From contig JAITVQ010000044.1 of the NCBI GenBank assembly GCA_031285745.1, positions 1 through 41,980 on the forward strand: a stretch of 41,980 bases of DNA. The letters are read 5' to 3'. Of this stretch, positions 3,871 through 41,527 are shown in pieces. How positions within the stretch are numbered: the first letter of the stretch is position 1; each line of letters begins with the position of its first letter. Origin of the DNA: Puniceicoccales bacterium (lineage in GTDB: Bacteria > Verrucomicrobiota > Verrucomicrobiia > Opitutales > UBA953). The notes beneath the pieces are model-generated. The model ran no database searches. It was not told the origin of the DNA and saw only the letters and a list, made by a program, of their open reading frames with translations. Both the position numbers and the translations under genes were made by a program.

Positions 3871-6414
3871 ATGAATTTTTCTCGTACGTCTTTGATTGTC
3901 GGAGCCTGCCTTTTGCTCGCCGGCAACATACTCCATGCCCAAGGCACTGCCGCTGATTACGAGCGTGCCTCCAAGCTGGAGGAGTCCCTCAAAAATACGG
4001 TCTTCAAGGGAAAAATATCCCCGCAATGGCTTCGCGACGAAGCCGGCTCAACCGTGGCGCTTTGGTATCGCAACGAATTGCCCGACAAAAAGGGGGAATT
4101 CATTTTCGTTGATATTGCCAAGGGCTCAAGAGAGGCGGCCTTTGATCATAAGCGCCTCGCTGAAGAGCTTGGCAAGGTTACTGAAAAAACCATCGACCCG
4201 GAAAAACTGCCGTTCCGAAGCATTTCGTTCAGCGATAACCGGGAGATCGTTTATTTTCAGGCGGAGAAAGAGTCGTGGGCTTGGAATCGAACCGCAGGCA
4301 GCCTTGGGAAAGCCACTGGGGAGGAGATGCGGATGCATCGCTCCATTGAGCCGCGGGCCAGCAAGGACGGGGGGACTGGCGTAACCGTCAACTTCATCAA
4401 CACCACCGATGAGGAAATCCAGTGCATCTGGATCAGCACCACTGATGAGCGGATCCCTTACGCAAAAATCAAACCGGGTGCGAATTTCAGCCAGGGAACC
4501 TTTGCCGGGCATGTCTGGATATTTGCCAACAAGGAGGGTGCGGTGATTGACCTGTGCGAGGCATCCGAAAACGAACCCATTTTTGAAATCACCAAGCCCA
4601 AGGGCGCAAAGGTCTCTGCCAAGGTTGATCCCAAGAAACAAAGGCCGAGCGGCAGCAATGCGATTTCCCCCGATGGCAAATGGAAGGCGGAGATTCGCGG
4701 CAACAATGTCTGGGTCAGCGAAACCAAGCCTGCCTCGAAGACGGAAAAATCAGAGTTCCAACTGACCACCGACGGAACCCCAGGCGATGGCTACACCCCG
4801 CATTTCTACTGGTCCTCCGATTCGAAGAAGCTGACCGGCATGCGGATTCAACTGGGGGAGCAGCGCAAGATTTACATCGTGGAATCCTCCCCCGCAGACC
4901 AGCTTCAGCCGAAACTTCATACCTTGAATTACACCAAGCCGGGCGACGTGATCAACAAGCCCCGTCCGCAGTTGTTCGATGTGGAGGCCAGGAAAAAAAT
5001 CCCCGTTTCCAGCGAACTCTTCCCGAATCCCTGGTCCATCGAGAATGTGCATTGGGACAAGGAATCTTCCGGGTTCTTCTTTTGCTATAATCAACGCGGG
5101 CACCAGATCATGCGGGTTGCCAAGGTGGATGCGGCAACGGGTTTGGTGAAATCCATTGTCGAGGAAACCAGCCAGACCTTCATCGATTATTCGCGGAAGA
5201 CATTTCTGCGATATCTCGACGATACCAATGAAATCATCTGGATGTCCGAGCGGGATGGCTGGAATCACTTGTACCTCTATGATGCTGCAAGCGCCCAGGT
5301 GAAGACGCAGATTACCAAGGGCGAATGGGTGGTGAAGCGGATCGAGTGGGTGGATGAACAGGCGCGGAAGATCTGGTTCTTTGCTGCGGGCATCAATCCG
5401 GGCGAAGATCCCTACTACGAGCACCTGTGCCGGGTGGATCTCGATGGATCGAACTTTACCGTCCTGACCCAGGAGGACGGGACTCACTCGGTGGAGATGT
5501 CCCCCGACCGGAAATTATTTGTCGATACCTGGTCACGCGTGGACCTCCCTGCCCGGCATCAACTCCGCCGGATGGAGGATGGCACTGCTGTCTGCGAACT
5601 GGAAACAGCGGATATCAGCAAATTGCTGGCAATCGGATGGAAGATGCCGGAACGCTTTGCCGCCAAGGGCCGGGATGGGGAGACGGAGATTTATGGAATC
5701 ATCGTGCGCCCGTCCAATTTTGATCCCGGCAAAAAATATCCCGTGCTGGAGAATATCTATGCCGGCCCGCACGATTTCCACACGCCCAAGTCTTTCGGCA
5801 GCCAGTTCGGGTATCTACGCCTGGCCGAACTTGGTTTCATCGTGGTGCGGATGGATGGCATGGGCACCAACTGGCGGTCGAGGGCTTTCCACGATGTGGC
5901 ATGGAAGAATTTGGCCGATGCCGGCTTCCCGGATCGTATTGCCTGGTTGAACGCGGCGGCGGAAAAACATCCCGAGATGGATATTTCGCGGATGGGCATT
6001 TATGGCGGTTCGGCGGGCGGGCAGAATGCACTGGGCGCGCTGCTCTTCCACGGTGATTTCTACAAGGCGGCGGCGGCAGACAGCGGCTGCCATGATAACC
6101 GCATGGACAAGATCTGGTGGAACGAGGCCTGGATGGGCTGGCCGGTTGGTCCGGAGTATGCCGAGCAATCCAATGTCACCAATGCCCACAAACTACAGGG
6201 CAAGCTTCTGCTCATTGTCGGAGAACTCGACAAAAATGTTGATCCTGCCAGCACCATGCAAGTTGCCAATGCACTCATCAAGGCCGACAAAGACTTTGAA
6301 ATGTTGGTTATTCCCGGCGGTGGCCATTGCCCTGGTTTCGGTGCTTACGGACTAAGGCGCCATCAGGATTTCTTTGTGCGGGCTCTCTATGGCGAGGAAC
6401 CCAGACGGCCATAG
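3871..6414 (+). CDS. Secreted dipeptidyl-peptidase-IV-like S9 peptidase with a VHL-like insert
   Basis: An 847-aa exported serine peptidase of clan SC, family S9. The start at 3871 gives a clear signal peptide (SLIVGACLLLAGNILHAQG). A DPP-IV-type beta-propeller follows (around 240-590, with SRKTFLRYL and IIWMSERDGWNHLYLYD), then an alpha/beta-hydrolase domain. The likely triad is Ser714 in GGSAGG, Asp787 in GELDKNV and His819 in GGGHCPG. Residues about 170-230 are not propeller-like and resemble the pVHL beta domain: VTVNFINTT, IQCIWI, then PGANFSQGTFAGHVWIF. The protein probably trims dipeptides or oligopeptides from proline-containing peptides outside the cytoplasm. It is monocistronic, with a strong terminator 35 bp after its stop. 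Confidence 0.9.
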   Translation: MNFSRTSLIVGACLLLAGNILHAQGTAADYERASKLEESLKNTVFKGKISPQWLRDEAGSTVALWYRNELPDKKGEFIFVDIAKGSREAAFDHKRLAEELGKVTEKTIDPEKLPFRSISFSDNREIVYFQAEKESWAWNRTAGSLGKATGEEMRMHRSIEPRASKDGGTGVTVNFINTTDEEIQCIWISTTDERIPYAKIKPGANFSQGTFAGHVWIFANKEGAVIDLCEASENEPIFEITKPKGAKVSAKVDPKKQRPSGSNAISPDGKWKAEIRGNNVWVSETKPASKTEKSEFQLTTDGTPGDGYTPHFYWSSDSKKLTGMRIQLGEQRKIYIVESSPADQLQPKLHTLNYTKPGDVINKPRPQLFDVEARKKIPVSSELFPNPWSIENVHWDKESSGFFFCYNQRGHQIMRVAKVDAATGLVKSIVEETSQTFIDYSRKTFLRYLDDTNEIIWMSERDGWNHLYLYDAASAQVKTQITKGEWVVKRIEWVDEQARKIWFFAAGINPGEDPYYEHLCRVDLDGSNFTVLTQEDGTHSVEMSPDRKLFVDTWSRVDLPARHQLRRMEDGTAVCELETADISKLLAIGWKMPERFAAKGRDGETEIYGIIVRPSNFDPGKKYPVLENIYAGPHDFHTPKSFGSQFGYLRLAELGFIVVRMDGMGTNWRSRAFHDVAWKNLADAGFPDRIAWLNAAAEKHPEMDISRMGIYGGSAGGQNALGALLFHGDFYKAAAADSGCHDNRMDKIWWNEAWMGWPVGPEYAEQSNVTNAHKLQGKLLLIVGELDKNVDPASTMQVANALIKADKDFEMLVIPGGGHCPGFGAYGLRRHQDFFVRALYGEEPRRP

Positions 6415-15824: not shown

Positions 15825-16607
15825 TTATCCGGCCATCTGCCCAGCCACCTCCATGCTACTGGAAGAACTGGACGCCGTTTCTGTCACCTCCTGTTTTTTT
15901 GCCGCCATCCCGCGCCGTTGTGCCACCGGCCATGCCACGGAGTCAATCCGGGCATTCCACTCGTTCACCAGCGCTGCGCCATTTTCGTCGGTTGGACTCA
16001 ATGCCATGTGTATCTCGATGCTTTTCACCAGCGATTGATAGGCCGCATCCATGGCTTCGCGGGCTAGGAGCACGTTCTTGTCGAACTGGCTTGCTCGCTC
16101 CGACAGACGTTTTGCCTCCAGATTTTTATACGACAGATTGTTTGCCTCCAATTCACTGACCCAATCGGTTAGGCTAAGCGTCTGCAAATCGGCAGAGGCT
16201 CCATCCTGCAAATCTTGGAGCATATTTGTCAGCGAGGCAGTTCTTTCGTTTCGAGACTTCCTCATCAGTGTCCGGTAATGCCAGAGGATGTTGTGCACCC
16301 TGATAGCCGCCTGACATTTGGCCGATTCGAAATGACGCAGATATGACGCTACTGTAGTACGCAGTCCGCGGAATGTCTTGCGACGTTTCTGGTCGAGTTC
16401 CTGAAGCTGCGCTGTGTGGACACTTCTGCGGATGATCTCCAGTGCAGTGTCCAGTTCATCGTAGCGGTCGTTATAGATCTCAACCAAGGCCGAAAAAATC
16501 TCGGACAGGTTATATTCGTTGACCAGTTTTGCTACTTTGTCGTGAAGCCCGAAGTGTTCCTCGTGACGTAAACGCGAAAGCGCAATGGTCTTAATCTTAT
16601 TTCTCAT
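15825..16607 (-). CDS. DUF6261-like helical protein, copy 1
   Basis: A 260-aa protein of unknown function, clearly homologous to the gene at 37796-38572. Shared blocks include RLR-EEHFG, YDELD-ALE, FLRH/YLRH, SADL and AYKNL/SYKNL; overall identity is roughly 35-40% by eye. The family looks like DUF6261, uncharacterised and mostly known from Bacteroidetes. The composition is almost wholly alpha-helical and charged, with no signal peptide or membrane helix. The tail is Ser-rich and ends in Met-Ala-Gly (SSSSSS...GQMAG), like the paralogue. Upstream, 49 bp before the start, lies a small hairpin (CCAATC/GATTGG, 16656-16676), and 180 bp before it begins a 42-bp-period hairpin array. No catalytic motif was found. 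Confidence 0.8.
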   Translation of the reverse strand: MRNKIKTIALSRLRHEEHFGLHDKVAKLVNEYNLSEIFSALVEIYNDRYDELDTALEIIRRSVHTAQLQELDQKRRKTFRGLRTTVASYLRHFESAKCQAAIRVHNILWHYRTLMRKSRNERTASLTNMLQDLQDGASADLQTLSLTDWVSELEANNLSYKNLEAKRLSERASQFDKNVLLAREAMDAAYQSLVKSIEIHMALSPTDENGAALVNEWNARIDSVAWPVAQRRGMAAKKQEVTETASSSSSSMEVAGQMAG

Positions 16608-16786
16608 GATATATGTATTTTTAGTATTATGTGTAGTTTATGATAGTTAATCATCCCAATCGGAATAATTGATTGGTAGTAAGCAGAAGAGGGATTTTCT
16701 GGGAAAAGGCGATGATTTTGTTGATGAAATTGTTAATTATAAGTTGTGCTGGAAGGTTACGGAAGTTTTTGCACCGTGATAGCCTT

Positions 16787-17074
16787 CTCCGTATTGATAC
16801 GGAGCTTCCATTTCACCTAGGGAGGTGTTTGAGAAGTAATACGGTGGCATTAATCCCGGTGAGATAGTTCCGCCGTATGCGTACGGAGACGCCAATTCAC
16901 GAAACATGGGTCTTCTGTCCTAATACGGAGGAGCGATTCCGGCCGGTGAGGTTTGGCCGTATGCATACAGTCATGCTGTAACAGCTGGCATGAGGTTTCC
17001 GTATGGGTACGATGCAAACAAATCAGCTGATTTTGTCCCTCTGTATGTGTACGGAGGAGACTCGTTGCCCGGCA
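16787..17074. repeat. Array 1: seven 42-bp units, each with two palindromes
   Basis: This occupies most of the gene-free stretch 16608-17022 and runs into the end of the next ORF. The first palindrome type (CCGTAT..ATACGG core) is centred at about 16796, 16838 (decayed), 16880, 16923, 16964, 17005 and 17047, a 40-44 bp pitch. Best copies are CTCCGTATTGATACGGAG (16787-16804) and CCTCTGTATGTGTACGGAGG (17038-17057). Between them lie palindromes of unrelated sequence: CACCT/AGGTG (16814-16827), CCGGCCGG (16939-16946), TCATGC/GCATGA (16971-16993), AAATCAGCTGATTT (17020-17033) and TGCC/GGCA (17066-17074); those near 16860 and 16900 are weak. No frame is open through the array. The remaining 16608-16786 is AT-rich leader DNA. 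Confidence 0.75.
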
Positions 17075-34488: not shown

Positions 34489-35961
34489 TTATTTTTCACT
34501 AACGGCTTCTCGCTTGGCATTTTCGTAGGGTGCATTGAGGAAGATCAGCGTGTCCGGGTCACGCAAGGCGTGCCGTTCGACGAAATCGAAGTTGTCGGAA
34601 TAGGTGAGCAATTCGTTGTCCTTTATTTTCCAGCGGGCATTACTGAATCCCATCGGGGCGGTGACGCCGTCGCGGAGAAGCTGGGCGGTGCCGTCCGGGA
34701 GGAAGCGGCGCTCGTAGCGATAGCCGCCGTAAGGATAAAACCAACTGCCGATAAAGTCCTTGGCCGTGGCGTGGAGGATGAATCCCTCCTCGAGCTGCAA
34801 GATGCCGATGTAGGGATGGGCGAGACCGGGTGTTTCCAGCGACGGGGCGTCCAAGGTCGCCTCAAGGGTCCATTGCCCGTTGGAGAAATTGTCCTGGGAG
34901 ACATTCAATCGGAAAACATTGTCCGAGCTGACCCCGGCGGCGGCCCGGGTGAGTCCGGTGTGTGCGTCGCGGGCGATTTCCTGTCCGTCGCGCAGCAAAC
35001 GCACCTGGCTGATTCTGACGCTGCCGGGACCTTGGAATGATTTGAAGATGGCGATGTATTCGGCGGATTTCCAAATCAGGTGCGAGACGTCCGCCGAGAA
35101 TTGCAGAGTCTTGCCGGGCATGGCTTCCCAGCGGAAATCGCGTGTGGGAATGCGCCGGATGAATTTTTCCCGGTTCAGCGGGACGGATTGCGCTTCCCCG
35201 GAAACCGGCATGGCGAGGGCTTGGTTGGCGAAGAGCGAGAGCACCTCCTTGTCCGAGGTGCGTTGTACCTTGATCTCGCCCTCGAAAACCCCGACCTCCG
35301 CGTTGCCGTCATGCGCGACATCCATGGCAAACTCGGTGCCGATGTCGGTGATTTTTCCGTGGGCGTAGTCGACGGAGAATCCGGTGGCGACAGGAGGCAC
35401 GTACGCGACCAGTTTGCCGTAGTCGAGCTTGCCTGTGTTTTGCCCGGTGATCGAGAAGTGACACGGGCCTTGGACTGTAACCCGCACGCCGTTGCCGTAA
35501 GTGACTTCAGCCAGTCCTGCGCGCAAGGCGAGGTAATCAGGAGCAAGGCCATTGTCTGTCAGGCTGGCCGACACCGATTTATCCCAGATAACTCCGACGA
35601 GCCCTGTGACCCGGGCAGCGGTTTGGATCGGTGGAGGCGCTGGAGAAAAGATTTTGGCCCCGAATATGCCCAGACCCAAGACAACTGCCGCTGCAAATCC
35701 GGTGGAGAATGTGGCAAGCCGCCTGTACCAGACGATATTCGATTTTGTCGCCACAACGGGTTTCTCGGGAGAACCGGTTTTCCCGTCAAAGAATGCCTCG
35801 ATCAATGCCGAGTCGTGCACGGAGGAAATGAACCATTCGCGGGCTGCATCGTTGGCGAGCAATGTCTCAAGCTTTGCAAGCTCGGCATCCGAAAGCGAGC
35901 CGGAATCGATCAGCTTGTCGGTTAGTGCGCGCAGTGTCTTTACTGGAAATTCGTTATTCAT
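34489..35961 (-). CDS. FecR-like anti-sigma regulator, copy 1
   Basis: A 490-aa single-pass membrane protein. The N-terminal 80 residues face the cytoplasm and would bind the sigma factor (LTDKLIDSGSLSDAELAKLE, then ANDAAREWFISSVHD). A membrane helix (about 82-104) follows. The periplasmic FecR domain includes ALRAGLAEVTYGNGVRVTVQ and HGKITDIGTEFAMDVAHDG with VGVFEGEIKVQ. The C-terminal domain, from about residue 400 (IGSWFYPYGGYRYERRFLPD), is shared with the second copy at 40004-41527 and ends in a DTLIFLNAPYENAKRE motif. Its start overlaps the sigma-factor gene by 8 bp, so the two are translationally coupled. It probably holds the sigma factor inactive until an outside signal arrives. Confidence 0.85.
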   Translation of the reverse strand: MNNEFPVKTLRALTDKLIDSGSLSDAELAKLETLLANDAAREWFISSVHDSALIEAFFDGKTGSPEKPVVATKSNIVWYRRLATFSTGFAAAVVLGLGIFGAKIFSPAPPPIQTAARVTGLVGVIWDKSVSASLTDNGLAPDYLALRAGLAEVTYGNGVRVTVQGPCHFSITGQNTGKLDYGKLVAYVPPVATGFSVDYAHGKITDIGTEFAMDVAHDGNAEVGVFEGEIKVQRTSDKEVLSLFANQALAMPVSGEAQSVPLNREKFIRRIPTRDFRWEAMPGKTLQFSADVSHLIWKSAEYIAIFKSFQGPGSVRISQVRLLRDGQEIARDAHTGLTRAAAGVSSDNVFRLNVSQDNFSNGQWTLEATLDAPSLETPGLAHPYIGILQLEEGFILHATAKDFIGSWFYPYGGYRYERRFLPDGTAQLLRDGVTAPMGFSNARWKIKDNELLTYSDNFDFVERHALRDPDTLIFLNAPYENAKREAVSEK

Positions 35962-36493
35962 CGGAGTGCTTCAGGCGTTTGGTGATGCAGTGCTTGAGAC
36001 GAAATCGAATGCGGGAGAGTGTCTTGTGGATGGTGTTGGCCGCTTTCTGGATATCTGATGAAAGGGCAGTAAGATTTTTCTTCTGGAAATATTTTAATCG
36101 CAACAGCGCCAGGTCACCTTCGGGCAGCAACTCTAGGCAGACTTTCAGGGCATCGAAACGGCGGTCGGCATGTTCGCCGAAGGCATCGGATTCTCCGGCG
36201 ATTTTTTCAGTCAACTCCTCGGAGAAGCAGACTTTTTTTTCCCGCTGCAGGTCACGCCGCTTGGCGAGAACCTTGAAACGGGCGGCGCTGAATGCCCAAG
36301 CCCGAAAGTTGGTGCCCGGTTGGAAGTCGGCCCGGCGTTCCCAGAGAAAAAGCATGGTATCCTGCAGGATTTCATCCGCCAGGGCCTGATTTGGGAAAAG
36401 CGTCAGGACATAGGCGCTTAGTCCATGCCGGATCGAATCGATTTCCCGGGAAAATTCGACTTCGTTCAGGCATTGTGGTGATGCTTCGGGCAT
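35954..36493 (-). CDS. ECF-type RNA polymerase sigma factor, copy 1
   Basis: A 179-aa extracytoplasmic-function sigma factor. Region 2 is visible as LSAYVLTLFPNQALADEILQ, DTMLFLWERRADF and NFRAWAFSAARFKVLAKRRD. Region 4 is CLELLPEGDLALLRLKYFQK with a helix-turn-helix in SSDIQKAANTIHKTLSRIRF. It overlaps the FecR-like gene by 8 bp. The upstream region 36494-36647 is gene-free and must hold the promoter, possibly autoregulated. Targets are unknown; the PEP-CTERM gene 220 bp upstream is one candidate. Confidence 0.92.
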   Translation of the reverse strand: MPEASPQCLNEVEFSREIDSIRHGLSAYVLTLFPNQALADEILQDTMLFLWERRADFQPGTNFRAWAFSAARFKVLAKRRDLQREKKVCFSEELTEKIAGESDAFGEHADRRFDALKVCLELLPEGDLALLRLKYFQKKNLTALSSDIQKAANTIHKTLSRIRFRLKHCITKRLKHSDE

Positions 36494-37795: not shown

Positions 37796-38572
37796 TTATC
37801 CTGCCATGCCCGATGAGCTTGAAGAATCGGCTGTTGTTTCCTCCAGCTTGTTCTTTTGGGCGGCCATGATGCCGACTCGCTGGGCGACCAGATGATTGTA
37901 GTAATCAATCTTGTCGTTCAGGCGAAACACCAGACTGACCATGTTTTCATCCGCAGGCGTTAGTAATCCGAGATTGTTTAGCTCCCGGACCACGGCTTGG
38001 TAGGCGGCGTCCGCCAATTCGCGGGCTTCGTCCACCTTCTTTGCCGGATGCCGGATTTCTCGTTCCTCGGTGCGCGAGTCTTTCAGGTTTTTATAGGCCT
38101 GATTATGCGTCTCCAGTTCGGTCATCCACGAGGTTACCCCGAGCAATGTCAGGTCGGCGGACACCTGATCCCGCAGATCGCCCAGCATGTGGGTAATCCC
38201 GTATGTTCTTTTGTCGCGGGACATATGCGCCAAGTTTCCGTAGTGCCGAATGATGGCGATGACCCGCTCGGCCGCCCGGCGCTTGGGCGTTTCGCTGTGC
38301 CGGAGAAATCCCCGCACTGCCGAACGCAAGCGCCGGTAGGTGTAGAGCTGCAACGCATCTGCTTCCTTCACTTGCTTGGTGAAGGCACTCTGGCGGACGA
38401 CCTCCAGGGCATCGTCCAGTTCGTCGTAGTGTCCTTGGTAGATGGCCAACAGGGACACGAATGCCTCCGACAAGCTATAATCGCTGGTTACTTTGACGAA
38501 TTCGGCGTGGAATCCGAAGTGTTCTTCATTACGCAGGCGGGTGAGCCGCACATTTTTCACTATATTTTCCAT
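37796..38572 (-). CDS. DUF6261-like helical protein, copy 2
   Basis: A 258-aa paralogue of the gene at 15825-16607, with shared blocks RLRNEEHFGFHAEF, HYDELDDALEVVRQS, FLRHSETPKRRAAERV and AYKNLKDSRTEERE. It is predicted all-helical, cytoplasmic and charged. Like the first copy it ends in a Ser run plus a Met-Ala-Gly tail (SSSSSGMAG). A hairpin CTGCCA/TGGCAG (38611-38627) lies 39 bp before the start codon, comparable with the small hairpin before copy 1. Further upstream come a 137-bp MITE-like element and then a second 42-bp-period hairpin array. The family is uncharacterised; I see no enzyme motif. Confidence 0.8.
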   Translation of the reverse strand: MENIVKNVRLTRLRNEEHFGFHAEFVKVTSDYSLSEAFVSLLAIYQGHYDELDDALEVVRQSAFTKQVKEADALQLYTYRRLRSAVRGFLRHSETPKRRAAERVIAIIRHYGNLAHMSRDKRTYGITHMLGDLRDQVSADLTLLGVTSWMTELETHNQAYKNLKDSRTEEREIRHPAKKVDEARELADAAYQAVVRELNNLGLLTPADENMVSLVFRLNDKIDYYNHLVAQRVGIMAAQKNKLEETTADSSSSSGMAG

Positions 38573-38885: not shown

Positions 38886-38975
38886 TCTATCTGTCTTGAG
38901 CGGACTTTATGTAACCAACTCTGGAACTGGTATTTTTGCCGGAAGCGAATGGGGCAAGTGCAAAAAATGAGCCCT

Positions 38976-39290
38976 TTCCGTTGCTGACGGAAGCATGAGG
39001 ACCATTGAAGATGGTCCCGTCGTCAGCGACGATGCTATGAAAGCTAATGGAGATGGCTCTTCCGTCAGTGACGGAAGCATGATCTCCAACGGAGTTGGCC
39101 TCTCCGTCAACGACGGCGATATGAACTCCAGTGGACTTGGTGTCGCCGTCAGTGGCGGCGGAATGAAATCCAATGGAAATAGCCCTTCCGTCAGTGACGG
39201 AAACATCATCTCCAACAGAGTTGGTCCTTCCGTCAACAACGGCGGAGGCTTTGCACTTGGTTTTGACACCTCCGTTCACGACGAAAATGA
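38976..39290. repeat. Array 2: eight 42-bp units, each with two palindromes
   Basis: The first-type palindromes are centred at 38984, 39024, 39068, 39110, 39152, 39194, 39236 and 39278, five of the seven intervals being exactly 42 bp. Best copies are CTTCCGTCAGTGACGGAAG (39059-39077), CGCCGTCAGTGGCGGCG (39144-39160) and TTCCGTCAGTGACGGAA (39186-39202). A second palindrome lies between each: ACCATTGAAGATGGT (39001-39015), CCAACGGAGTTGG (39086-39098), TCCAGTGGA (39127-39135), TCCAATGGA (39169-39177) and CCAACAGAGTTGG (39212-39224). The last two units are decayed. Three reading frames happen to stay open because 42 is divisible by three; I do not read them as genes. After the array, 39291-39405 is the leader of the sigma-factor gene. 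Confidence 0.85.
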
Positions 39291-39405
39291 CCCCTATGCT
39301 AGAGGTGATGACAAATCTCCTGTCTGCCCTGTCCGGACTGGGTTTCTGCTTTGAGATTCCTGTTGCGGTTGGGGATATTTCCTTCATCTCCTCGGGTTTC
39401 TTCTC

Positions 39406-39990
39406 ATGGGGCAGGATATTCCTCCAGGCAGTCCGGCGACATGGCCGAATAGCAAGAGGTCAGGTTTAGGACCCGGCGGGTCGCCCGACATCGACACCGT
39501 GTTGAAGGAGCTGTGGACGTCGATGCGCACCTATGCCATCGCCCTCGCGGGCGGCAATCTGGCGGCGGCCGACGATATCTTGCAGGAGAGCATCATTTGC
39601 ATCTGGGAGAAACGGGATGAGGTGCCCCAAGTCAAAAACCTGAAAGGGTGGGCGGCCCGGATTGTCTATTTCAAGGCGCTGTCTTTTCGCCGAGATCATT
39701 TTGACAATGCCTTGGTCGGATTCCCCGAGGACATCATGGCGAACATTGCCGAAGCCATTGAGCCGATGACCGACAATACTGCCGCGCGCGTGGAGGCGCT
39801 TTCCTATTGCGTGGAAAAGTTGACCCAGGAGGAGCGGTTTCTGCTGTTATCCTACTTTGAGGAATCGCTTCCGGTGACCAAGCTGGCTGCCCGCTTGCGC
39901 AAGACCGAGGACGCCATCTACCAGCAGATCGCCCGCCTGCGCCGGGCCTTGCGCCGTTGCGTGGACATAAAATTCAACCTGATAAAATAG
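39406..39990 (+). CDS. ECF-type RNA polymerase sigma factor, copy 2
   Basis: A 194-aa sigma factor. Region 2 appears as MRTYAIALAGGNLAAADDIL, QESIICIWEKRDE and NLKGWAARIVYFKALSFRRD; region 4 as CVEKLTQEERFLLLSYFEES with the helix-turn-helix VTKLAARLRKTEDAIYQQIA. The N-terminal 35 residues are not conserved-looking and the start could lie further in. A FecR-like gene begins 13 bp after its stop. It is a paralogue of the pair at 34.5-36.5 kb, on the opposite strand. The 42-bp hairpin array ends about 115 bp upstream. Confidence 0.9.
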   Translation: MGQDIPPGSPATWPNSKRSGLGPGGSPDIDTVLKELWTSMRTYAIALAGGNLAAADDILQESIICIWEKRDEVPQVKNLKGWAARIVYFKALSFRRDHFDNALVGFPEDIMANIAEAIEPMTDNTAARVEALSYCVEKLTQEERFLLLSYFEESLPVTKLAARLRKTEDAIYQQIARLRRALRRCVDIKFNLIK

Positions 39991-40003
39991 CCGGATATTG
40001 CCT

Positions 40004-41527
40004 ATGACTTCCCCGCAGAAAAACCACCTGCCCGAGATTCCTCCGGAATTTTATATCCTGGTGGAGCAGAAATTTGCCGGGACGGTTTCACCGGAAGGCC
40101 AGCAGGAACTGGAGGAATGCTTGCGCCGGTCTCCCGAGGCGCTGCAGTACTATGTGTCCCAGTGCGAGATTGCCGGATCGTTGCCCGAGGCGCTGCATAT
40201 ATATCAGGAGCGGGCGGCCCGGCAGGAGAAATTGCCTGCCCAGACCATCGCCTTTTCCCGTTACCGTTGGGCGGCTGTCGGAGCCATTGTCGCCGTAATA
40301 CTTTGTGGTGTGGCGGTGGCCGTTTTTCAGAGAAATTTCCTGTCCACTGACAACAATAACTCTGTGGCTAAGACTGTTTCCGATGCCCCGGTCTGCCGGG
40401 TCTCCAATGTCCTCGGCGCGTCTTTCAAAAATCAGCGGATCGAACTGAAAACCGAATTGACGGCCTCGGAGTTTGCCATCGACACGGGCGTGGTCGAATT
40501 GACCTTCGGACAGGGGGCGCGGGTGTTGCTGGAAAGCCCGGCCTCGCTCGTCATCATCAACGACAACTCCTGTCGCCTGCTCCGTGGCAAGGCGGTGGTC
40601 GATGTGCCGGATTCCGCCAAGGGGTTTGTCATGGAAGGCCCGCGTGACCGGATTATCGACTACGGGACGCGGTTCGCCGTCGATGTCGCTGGGGATGGTG
40701 AACGCACCCTGCTCGGGGTACTGAATGGCATCGTTGACCTGGAGCACAACAACAGCACGGTGCGGCTCTTCACCAACTACGCCATTGAGCGGCAGGGCGA
40801 GCAAATCAAGTCGGTGCCTTTCGACCGATCCGCCTTCCTGACGGAAATGCCCACGCAGGAGTTTTTCTGGAATCTGAATGGACTGCCTTTCGACGAGATC
40901 AGGACCCTGCGCTTTGAGGTGACTCCGCTGGTCAAGACACCGGGAGATATTCATGTGATCTTCAAATGGATGTCCGGGGAGAACGGGCTGCTGGTGAAAA
41001 ACCTGCGCTTGGAGCGTGACGGCGTCGCGATTGTTTCCTCGGACGAGCGACGCCGGGCGGGCCGCTATATCGGCTATAGCTATGGCAACATGTTCCCCAT
41101 AAACCTGCCTTCGGACACACCGCTGCCCGGCAAATGGGAATTGGTCGTCGAGGGGACTTGTACCCGAAACAACAATATCCAGAAAGAGGGAGATACTGCC
41201 ACCTCGGAAGGGATATTCTCCTTTGAGAAGGGGCTGCTGACCAATGTTACCCCGGAGGAAGTGGTGGGGCGTTGGGAATTCTCCCACGACAACCAAACCT
41301 ATATCCGGGAGTTCAAATCCGATGGTACGGCCACGATGACCGTGGATGGAAAGTTGCGGGAGATTCCTCCTGAGATCACTCCCCAATGGACGGTGAAAGA
41401 GGGCGTGGTGACCATTGAGTTTCTCAATGGAGGCAAGGCGTGGATTCCGGAAAAAATGGTTCTCCGAGACAAAAACACCCTTATCTTTCTCAGCCATCCC
41501 TACCGCAATGCCCAGCGAATGGAATAG
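40004..41527 (+). CDS. FecR-like anti-sigma regulator, copy 2
   Basis: A 507-aa single-pass membrane protein. The start at 40004 (ATG) was chosen over a TTG six bases upstream. A cytoplasmic N-terminal domain (about 1-85, EIPPEFYILVEQKFAGTVSP, then EECLRRSPEALQYYVSQC) precedes a membrane helix (87-109). A divergent FecR domain follows (VVELTFGQGARVLLESPASL, then DRIIDYGTRFAVDVAGDG). The C-terminal domain (about 415-505, VVGRWEFSHDNQTYIREFKS, ending NTLIFLSHPYRNAQR) matches copy 1. It probably restrains the sigma factor encoded just before it. A MITE-like element begins 10 bp after the stop. Confidence 0.85.
   Translation: MTSPQKNHLPEIPPEFYILVEQKFAGTVSPEGQQELEECLRRSPEALQYYVSQCEIAGSLPEALHIYQERAARQEKLPAQTIAFSRYRWAAVGAIVAVILCGVAVAVFQRNFLSTDNNNSVAKTVSDAPVCRVSNVLGASFKNQRIELKTELTASEFAIDTGVVELTFGQGARVLLESPASLVIINDNSCRLLRGKAVVDVPDSAKGFVMEGPRDRIIDYGTRFAVDVAGDGERTLLGVLNGIVDLEHNNSTVRLFTNYAIERQGEQIKSVPFDRSAFLTEMPTQEFFWNLNGLPFDEIRTLRFEVTPLVKTPGDIHVIFKWMSGENGLLVKNLRLERDGVAIVSSDERRRAGRYIGYSYGNMFPINLPSDTPLPGKWELVVEGTCTRNNNIQKEGDTATSEGIFSFEKGLLTNVTPEEVVGRWEFSHDNQTYIREFKSDGTATMTVDGKLREIPPEITPQWTVKEGVVTIEFLNGGKAWIPEKMVLRDKNTLIFLSHPYRNAQRME

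Follow-up and report, generated by a model that had tools for sequence, protein, structure and literature searches.

A 42-bp palindromic array beside a DUF6261 gene and an apparently undescribed array-plus-protein module in two bacterial phyla

The window analysed here, a stretch of 41,980 nucleotides from a Puniceicoccales bacterium, contains an array of eight 42-bp units that lies about 0.4 kb upstream of the start of a DUF6261 gene (Table 1). The array is also adjoined by an ECF sigma factor with a FecR-like protein downstream of it (39406–41527), and no Cas protein was recognised among the neighbours. A second ECF sigma factor/FecR-like pair is found in the window at 34489–36493, and an ECF sigma factor is likewise preceded by an orphan array remnant (L133). 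The two DUF6261 proteins of the window score 99 and 113 bits against the Pfam cut-off of 27, which places both in PF19775. DUF6261 proteins of this genome, here those of both window genes, have a poly-serine tail at the C terminus (SSSSSS with a few more residues). The second of the two genes has an array in the same placement as the first. This array, presumably the first one implied by the initial annotation, is genuine, but faint.

Table 1. Features of the window, and the locus of a second array-linked protein family (last row, in that locus' own coordinates).
Feature	Position	Strand	Remarks
42-bp-unit array, eight units	38974..39290	.	A palindrome (core TTCCGTCAGTGACGGAA) alternating with B palindrome about 21 bp off
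A palindrome, unit 1	38976..38992	.	centre 38984
A palindrome, unit 2	39018..39034	.	centre 39026
A palindrome, unit 3	39060..39076	.	centre 39068; TTCCGTCAGTGACGGAA
A palindrome, unit 4	39102..39118	.	centre 39110
A palindrome, unit 5	39144..39160	.	centre 39152; CGCCGTCAGTGGCGGCG; two compensated pairs and T-G
A palindrome, unit 6	39186..39202	.	centre 39194
A palindrome, unit 7	39228..39244	.	centre 39236
A palindrome, unit 8, degenerate	39270..39286	.	centre 39278; read from sequence
DUF6261 gene (PF19775, 258 aa)	37796..38572	minus	Pfam E 2.8e-28; nearest gene left of the array
Second DUF6261 gene	15825..16607	minus	Pfam E 2.2e-32; array 16767-17053 upstream
Weaker 42-bp array, different theme (CCGTATGCGTACGG)	16767..17053	.	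lag 42, identity 0.48
P0001-family ('HAKNVANF') locus, genome G427	L193:4060-4419 and 4426-5193		

According to TRF, the main array is the sole strong one in the window, with a period of 42 at 39049–39235 and a score of 139. Its autocorrelation over 126 bp gives an identity of 0.68 at lag 42, a value reached by none of 2000 dinucleotide-block shuffles, for which the maximum over lags 30–60 is 0.47. The initial annotation had counted eight units with five exact 42-bp intervals; we find the eight units, and all seven intervals are exactly 42 bp. The compensatory changes quoted there are also present: between TTCCGTCAGTGACGGAA (39060–39076) and CGCCGTCAGTGGCGGCG (39144–39160), two T-A pairs are replaced, one by C-G and the other by G-C, and a third pair becomes a T-G wobble. 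The B palindromes described as alternating with these do exist, although they are weaker and far less regular than the A palindromes, and B (CCAACGGAGTTGG) shows no covariation.

A reading that we consider unlikely, but that deserves careful weighing, is that the arrays are transcribed and that DUF6261 binds the individual units as hairpin or dual-repeat RNAs, which would make the system a catalysis-free analogue of TasA/TIGR with a guide or scaffold role. Compared with its shuffles, the window array folds much more stably (z = −6.8 for the plus and −8.5 for the minus strand), which is in line with this reading; however, any palindromic DNA, whatever its origin, folds well on both strands. An Rfam scan of the window returned no structured RNA family above the gathering threshold. 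The covariation was calculated for 28 units, taken from four array copies of the window genome and the window's own array. The score of the A palindrome is 0.262, compared to 0.189 ± 0.022 for shuffles (0 of 500 reach the observed value), while the number of pairs changed on both sides, a measure less sensitive to relatedness, is 3 compared to 2.0 and not significant (117 of 500). The covariation proposed for the A palindrome is thus borne out by the score and not by the pair count. Over 54 arrays, compensated double changes are in clear excess (109, compared to 63 ± 12 in shuffles; 0 of 100), which again favours RNA. Template-switch mutation can, however, yield compensated changes without selection on pairing.

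If the arms paired as RNA, G-U would be tolerated on the transcribed strand, and one would expect more G-T than A-C mismatches. In the arms of 64 DUF6261-linked arrays there are 69 G-T and 68 A-C mismatches, with no heterogeneity between arrays (p 0.51); earlier versions of this count gave 41 vs 56 and 43 vs 40, and the genome-wide arrays of the Bacteroidales genome G610 give 41 vs 26 (p 0.09). There is thus no clear strand signature, overall or per array. The strand-symmetric mismatches and the B palindrome without covariation make the RNA-hairpin reading weak. The self-complementarity with compensatory change described in the initial annotation is partly supported, and the missing strand-specific wobble argues against selection having acted on an RNA hairpin. 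The arrays of two 90%-identical proteins are informative in this respect, as they carry CTACA/TGTAG and CTGCA/TGCAG, respectively, with both arms changed in all units. Such a joint change would follow if both half-sites are recognised by the same protein surface. The unit-by-unit compensation, which is seen to a lesser degree, could stem either from template-switch mutation or from genuine pairing. On balance, the module probably works via double-stranded DNA and not via RNA hairpins.

We now turn to the linkage between array and gene. The window genome has 16 DUF6261 matches, most of which adjoin an upstream array of their own with a differently worded palindrome (e.g. TTCCGCGTTTCGCGGAA, TCTGACGTGTCAGA and CTTGCGTTTTCGCAAG), and the lone DUF6261 gene of a congeneric genome is preceded by units of the form GCTCNNNNNGAGC. 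The upstream regions of 111 DUF6261 loci, drawn from the window genome, from other genomes of its phylum and from Bacteroidales, were scanned at lags of 30–60, and an array was called when the best lag was 40–43 with at least 50% identity, the calls being dependent on this threshold. An upstream array with a period of 40–43 bp is present at 86 of these loci and one with another lag at a single locus, compared to 4 of 104 loci at lag 41 or 42 in the downstream control (Fisher 1e-31). The distribution of DUF6261 is patchy, with matches in 2 of 38 close relatives (window genome included), 5 of 388 genomes in the phylum and 32 of 295 Bacteroidales genomes, and MAG contamination may touch the odd genome in the sample. 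A direct search of named genomes gave no DUF6261 match, and a profile search gave one Bacteroides MAG.

The upstream array is missing at five of the DUF6261 loci in genome G407 and at a few loci elsewhere. The G407 loci L030, L035, L036 and L033/L034 encode diverged DUF6261 proteins, and several of the diverged genes in this genome are instead preceded by short TTAGTTG-type tandem repeats. At another locus (L029, G302), an apparent CRISPR array lies directly upstream of the DUF6261 gene and replaces the 42-bp array. No DUF6261 relative could be confirmed in viral contigs, and there was no match among viral models and no meaningful one in PHROG; the plasmid search and the PADLOC models of known anti-phage defence gave no match either. 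An unverified 6.3-kb 'bacteriophage' record, MT837725.1, contains a DUF6261 relative (24% identity) whose gene is preceded by a weak 41-bp repeat, and is possibly a bacterial scaffold.

Of 388 units, 349 are either 41 bp (172) or 42 bp (177) long. This bears on a further reading, to which we assign a very low probability, namely that the array encodes a protein of 14-residue repeats. That 42 is divisible by 3, and that the plus frame 38995–39354 and the minus frame 38887–39387 are both open, could be taken in its favour. However, open frames across the array follow from palindromes on both strands, Pfam matches neither translation, and nearly half of the related units are 41 bp, which breaks the frame and refutes the repeat protein for the array family.

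The arrays are not confined to DUF6261 genes. At least four further good copies of the window-theme array, together with remnants, are found at intergenic sites of the window genome without DUF6261, and they match the window array unit by unit; whole arrays have been copied as blocks without the gene. One mosaic array (L132:4893-5300, G000:C265) has two window-theme units followed by units of the theme GGTTTACACTGAAGATGG, which also adjoins a different DUF6261 locus (L017). The first 400 kb of the single contig of G610 (C1:1-400000, L134–L153) contain 27 arrays, all with periods of 41–44 bp, corresponding to about one per 15 kb. They occur in all intergenic orientations, and some orphans carry the theme of a gene-linked array. 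Several of the 27 arrays are flanked by DUF6261-like proteins (e.g. 242893–243657, 262236–262976 and 361717–362511) that are perhaps too diverged for the Pfam model. Inspection by eye of about 450 kb sampled from same-phylum genomes without DUF6261 revealed GC-rich or coding-like repeats only and no palindromic arrays, and arrays do occur in two small samples of Bacteroidales in which DUF6261 has no match.

These dispersed copies raise the question of whether the arrays are selfish or otherwise non-adaptive repeats that grow through slippage and the correction of quasi-palindromes and disperse between genes, with DUF6261 as a passenger or a helper of the spread, as for RAYTs and REPINs. We find this improbable. 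The orphans in all orientations, their density in G610 and the block copies without a gene are what it would lead one to expect, and template switching could account for compensated changes unselected for pairing. On the other hand, a 41–42-bp period shared by unrelated sequences in two phyla and next to two protein families implies a constraint beyond slippage. DUF6261 is moreover intact in most copies and has no recognised nuclease or transposase domain.

The second protein family came from one of the two samples without a DUF6261 match, where an unannotated protein of 255 residues, called P0001, adjoins the array. Of 198 Bacteroidales genomes, 20 have a member of this family, and at 23 of its 29 loci a lag-42 array lies directly downstream, with none upstream (Fisher 2e-10). 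Its arrays consist of direct repeats, with a length of 21 bp in 141 of 151 units, and are palindromic in only 1 of 22 cases. Such arrays, non-palindromic yet kept in the 21-bp register, count against the RNA reading. Both families have an internal tandem duplication (E 7e-5 for DUF6261 and 6e-8 for P0001), and structure models predict both to be all-helical. Homology between the two was considered and is not supported. Fold searches gave no significant match to a solved structure for either family, and neither contains a recognised DNA-binding domain. In the array-linked genes, DUF6261 alone scores above the Pfam cut-off, with no recognised nuclease, transposase or Y1 HUH domain and no Pfam match for Nop or Transposase_20.

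In the average over 26 arrays, the identity between units peaks at 2–7 bp and 14–18 bp from the A dyad and has troughs at about 10–11 and 20–21 bp. This amounts to four conserved half-sites per 42 bp, roughly one per helical turn, a unit of 41–42 bp being four turns of B-DNA. The sites are thus in phase with the helix, both in the 41–42-bp and the 21-bp units, with roughly a turn from one half-site peak to the next. Phasing alone would also permit units that span three or five turns (31 or 52 bp), but a search for such spacings found none.

The half-site per turn, the duplicated proteins and the 21-bp units of the P0001 family make a two-domain monomer per two turns the simplest model. We accordingly propose that two-domain helical proteins coat private arrays of double-stranded DNA with one monomer per about 21 bp, an interpretation that we hold with slightly less than even confidence. 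The window array would be the private array to which the adjacent DUF6261 protein binds, each monomer covering about 21 bp, that is, two turns. Head-to-head and tail-to-tail packing of the monomers could explain why dyads alternate every 21 bp or so, and several units together would seed a cooperative filament along a single face of the helix. Formed beside the protein's own gene, such a filament might lead to autoregulation, and formed at orphan arrays to local silencing, insulation or positioning. The apparently unrelated P0001 proteins would use the same 21-bp register head-to-tail, giving direct repeats.

In support of the double-stranded DNA model we count the DUF6261 linkage, the 41/42-bp units, the half-site profile, the strand symmetry, the protein duplications, the all-α models, the 21-bp repeats of the second family and the arrays of the same theme in trans. 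Several observations speak against it. Pairs of DUF6261 proteins that are 76–82% identical can have unrelated palindromes, a faster change than that by which most operators evolve, and the excess of compensated changes between units of one array is unexpected for operator sites. Neither family has a recognised DNA-binding domain or a fold match, the 31- and 52-bp spacings are not seen, there are loci with no upstream array, such as the five in G407, and tandem duplication alone could fix the unit length.

The main finding is the gene linkage, the sister arrays and the 21-bp register, all of which were beyond the reach of the initial annotation. DUF6261 with its private 41–42-base array apparently constitutes an undescribed and common array-plus-protein module; a search of freely accessible papers turned up nothing on what DUF6261 does or on arrays of this kind. 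A broader proposal, which we put forward tentatively and as less than probable, is that these arrays belong to a class of systems not recognised before. At least two two-domain helical families, unrelated to each other, would each have private arrays kept to a constant 21-bp register, which is inverted in the case of DUF6261 and direct in that of the P0001 family. The arrays, numbering up to hundreds in a genome, would act in trans as filament addresses or, if transcribed, as guide RNAs. Such systems would be common among Bacteroidales, with scattered occurrences in a second phylum. The module represents a large unexplained genome content, in two phyla and about a tenth of the sampled Bacteroidales genomes, with at least a dozen genes and about 290 arrays in one genome, the latter figure extrapolated from one 400-kb stretch. 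If the proteins indeed bind double-stranded arrays with a fast-changing private specificity, this would be a new chromosome-marking or silencing system, and if the arrays are transcribed, a new RNA-array system.

Among known systems, TIGR arrays have several units up- or downstream of the gene at a fixed spacer length, the repeats are constant within a locus and differ between loci, and the commonest associated protein has no nuclease (PMC12045711). The likeness in layout, with several two-part units at fixed spacing beside a small non-catalytic helical protein, per-locus repeats and an array on either side, is an argument for the RNA reading. The TIGR period and the tigRNA are, however, about 36 bp and 36 nt, and UG/CCA boxes surround variable spacers of about 9 nt, whereas the arrays discussed here have a period of 41–42 bp, two dyad-symmetric half-site pairs per unit, linkers that are often conserved (up to 99% between units in some arrays), dispersed orphans and no strand-specific pairing. 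The Nop domain is missing by Pfam and by fold, which counts against the RNA reading too, and neither a PDB fold nor a sequence match places DUF6261 in TIGR-Tas. REP/REPIN-RAYT systems similarly have many intergenic palindromic repeats with a related copy beside one gene, but REPs are paired hairpins and not regular 41–42-bp arrays, each paralogous DUF6261 gene has its own array theme, and DUF6261, the only Pfam family above cut-off, is not a Y1 HUH transposase, which argues against membership.

Iteron-, parS- and parC-type arrays are also helix-phased repeats beside the gene of a presumed binding protein. They differ in that up to a dozen or more DUF6261 paralogous loci with private sequences occur per chromosome, the window arrays adjoin no replication or partition gene, and the DUF6261 fold is unmatched. 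Finally, CRISPR shares the palindromic repeat and the constant-length linker, whereas the units of a DUF6261 array have linkers in common, in part or in full, the period is shorter and no Cas protein is recognised alongside; the window array, with shared linkers and with DUF6261 and an ECF sigma factor as neighbours, is thus set apart from CRISPR.
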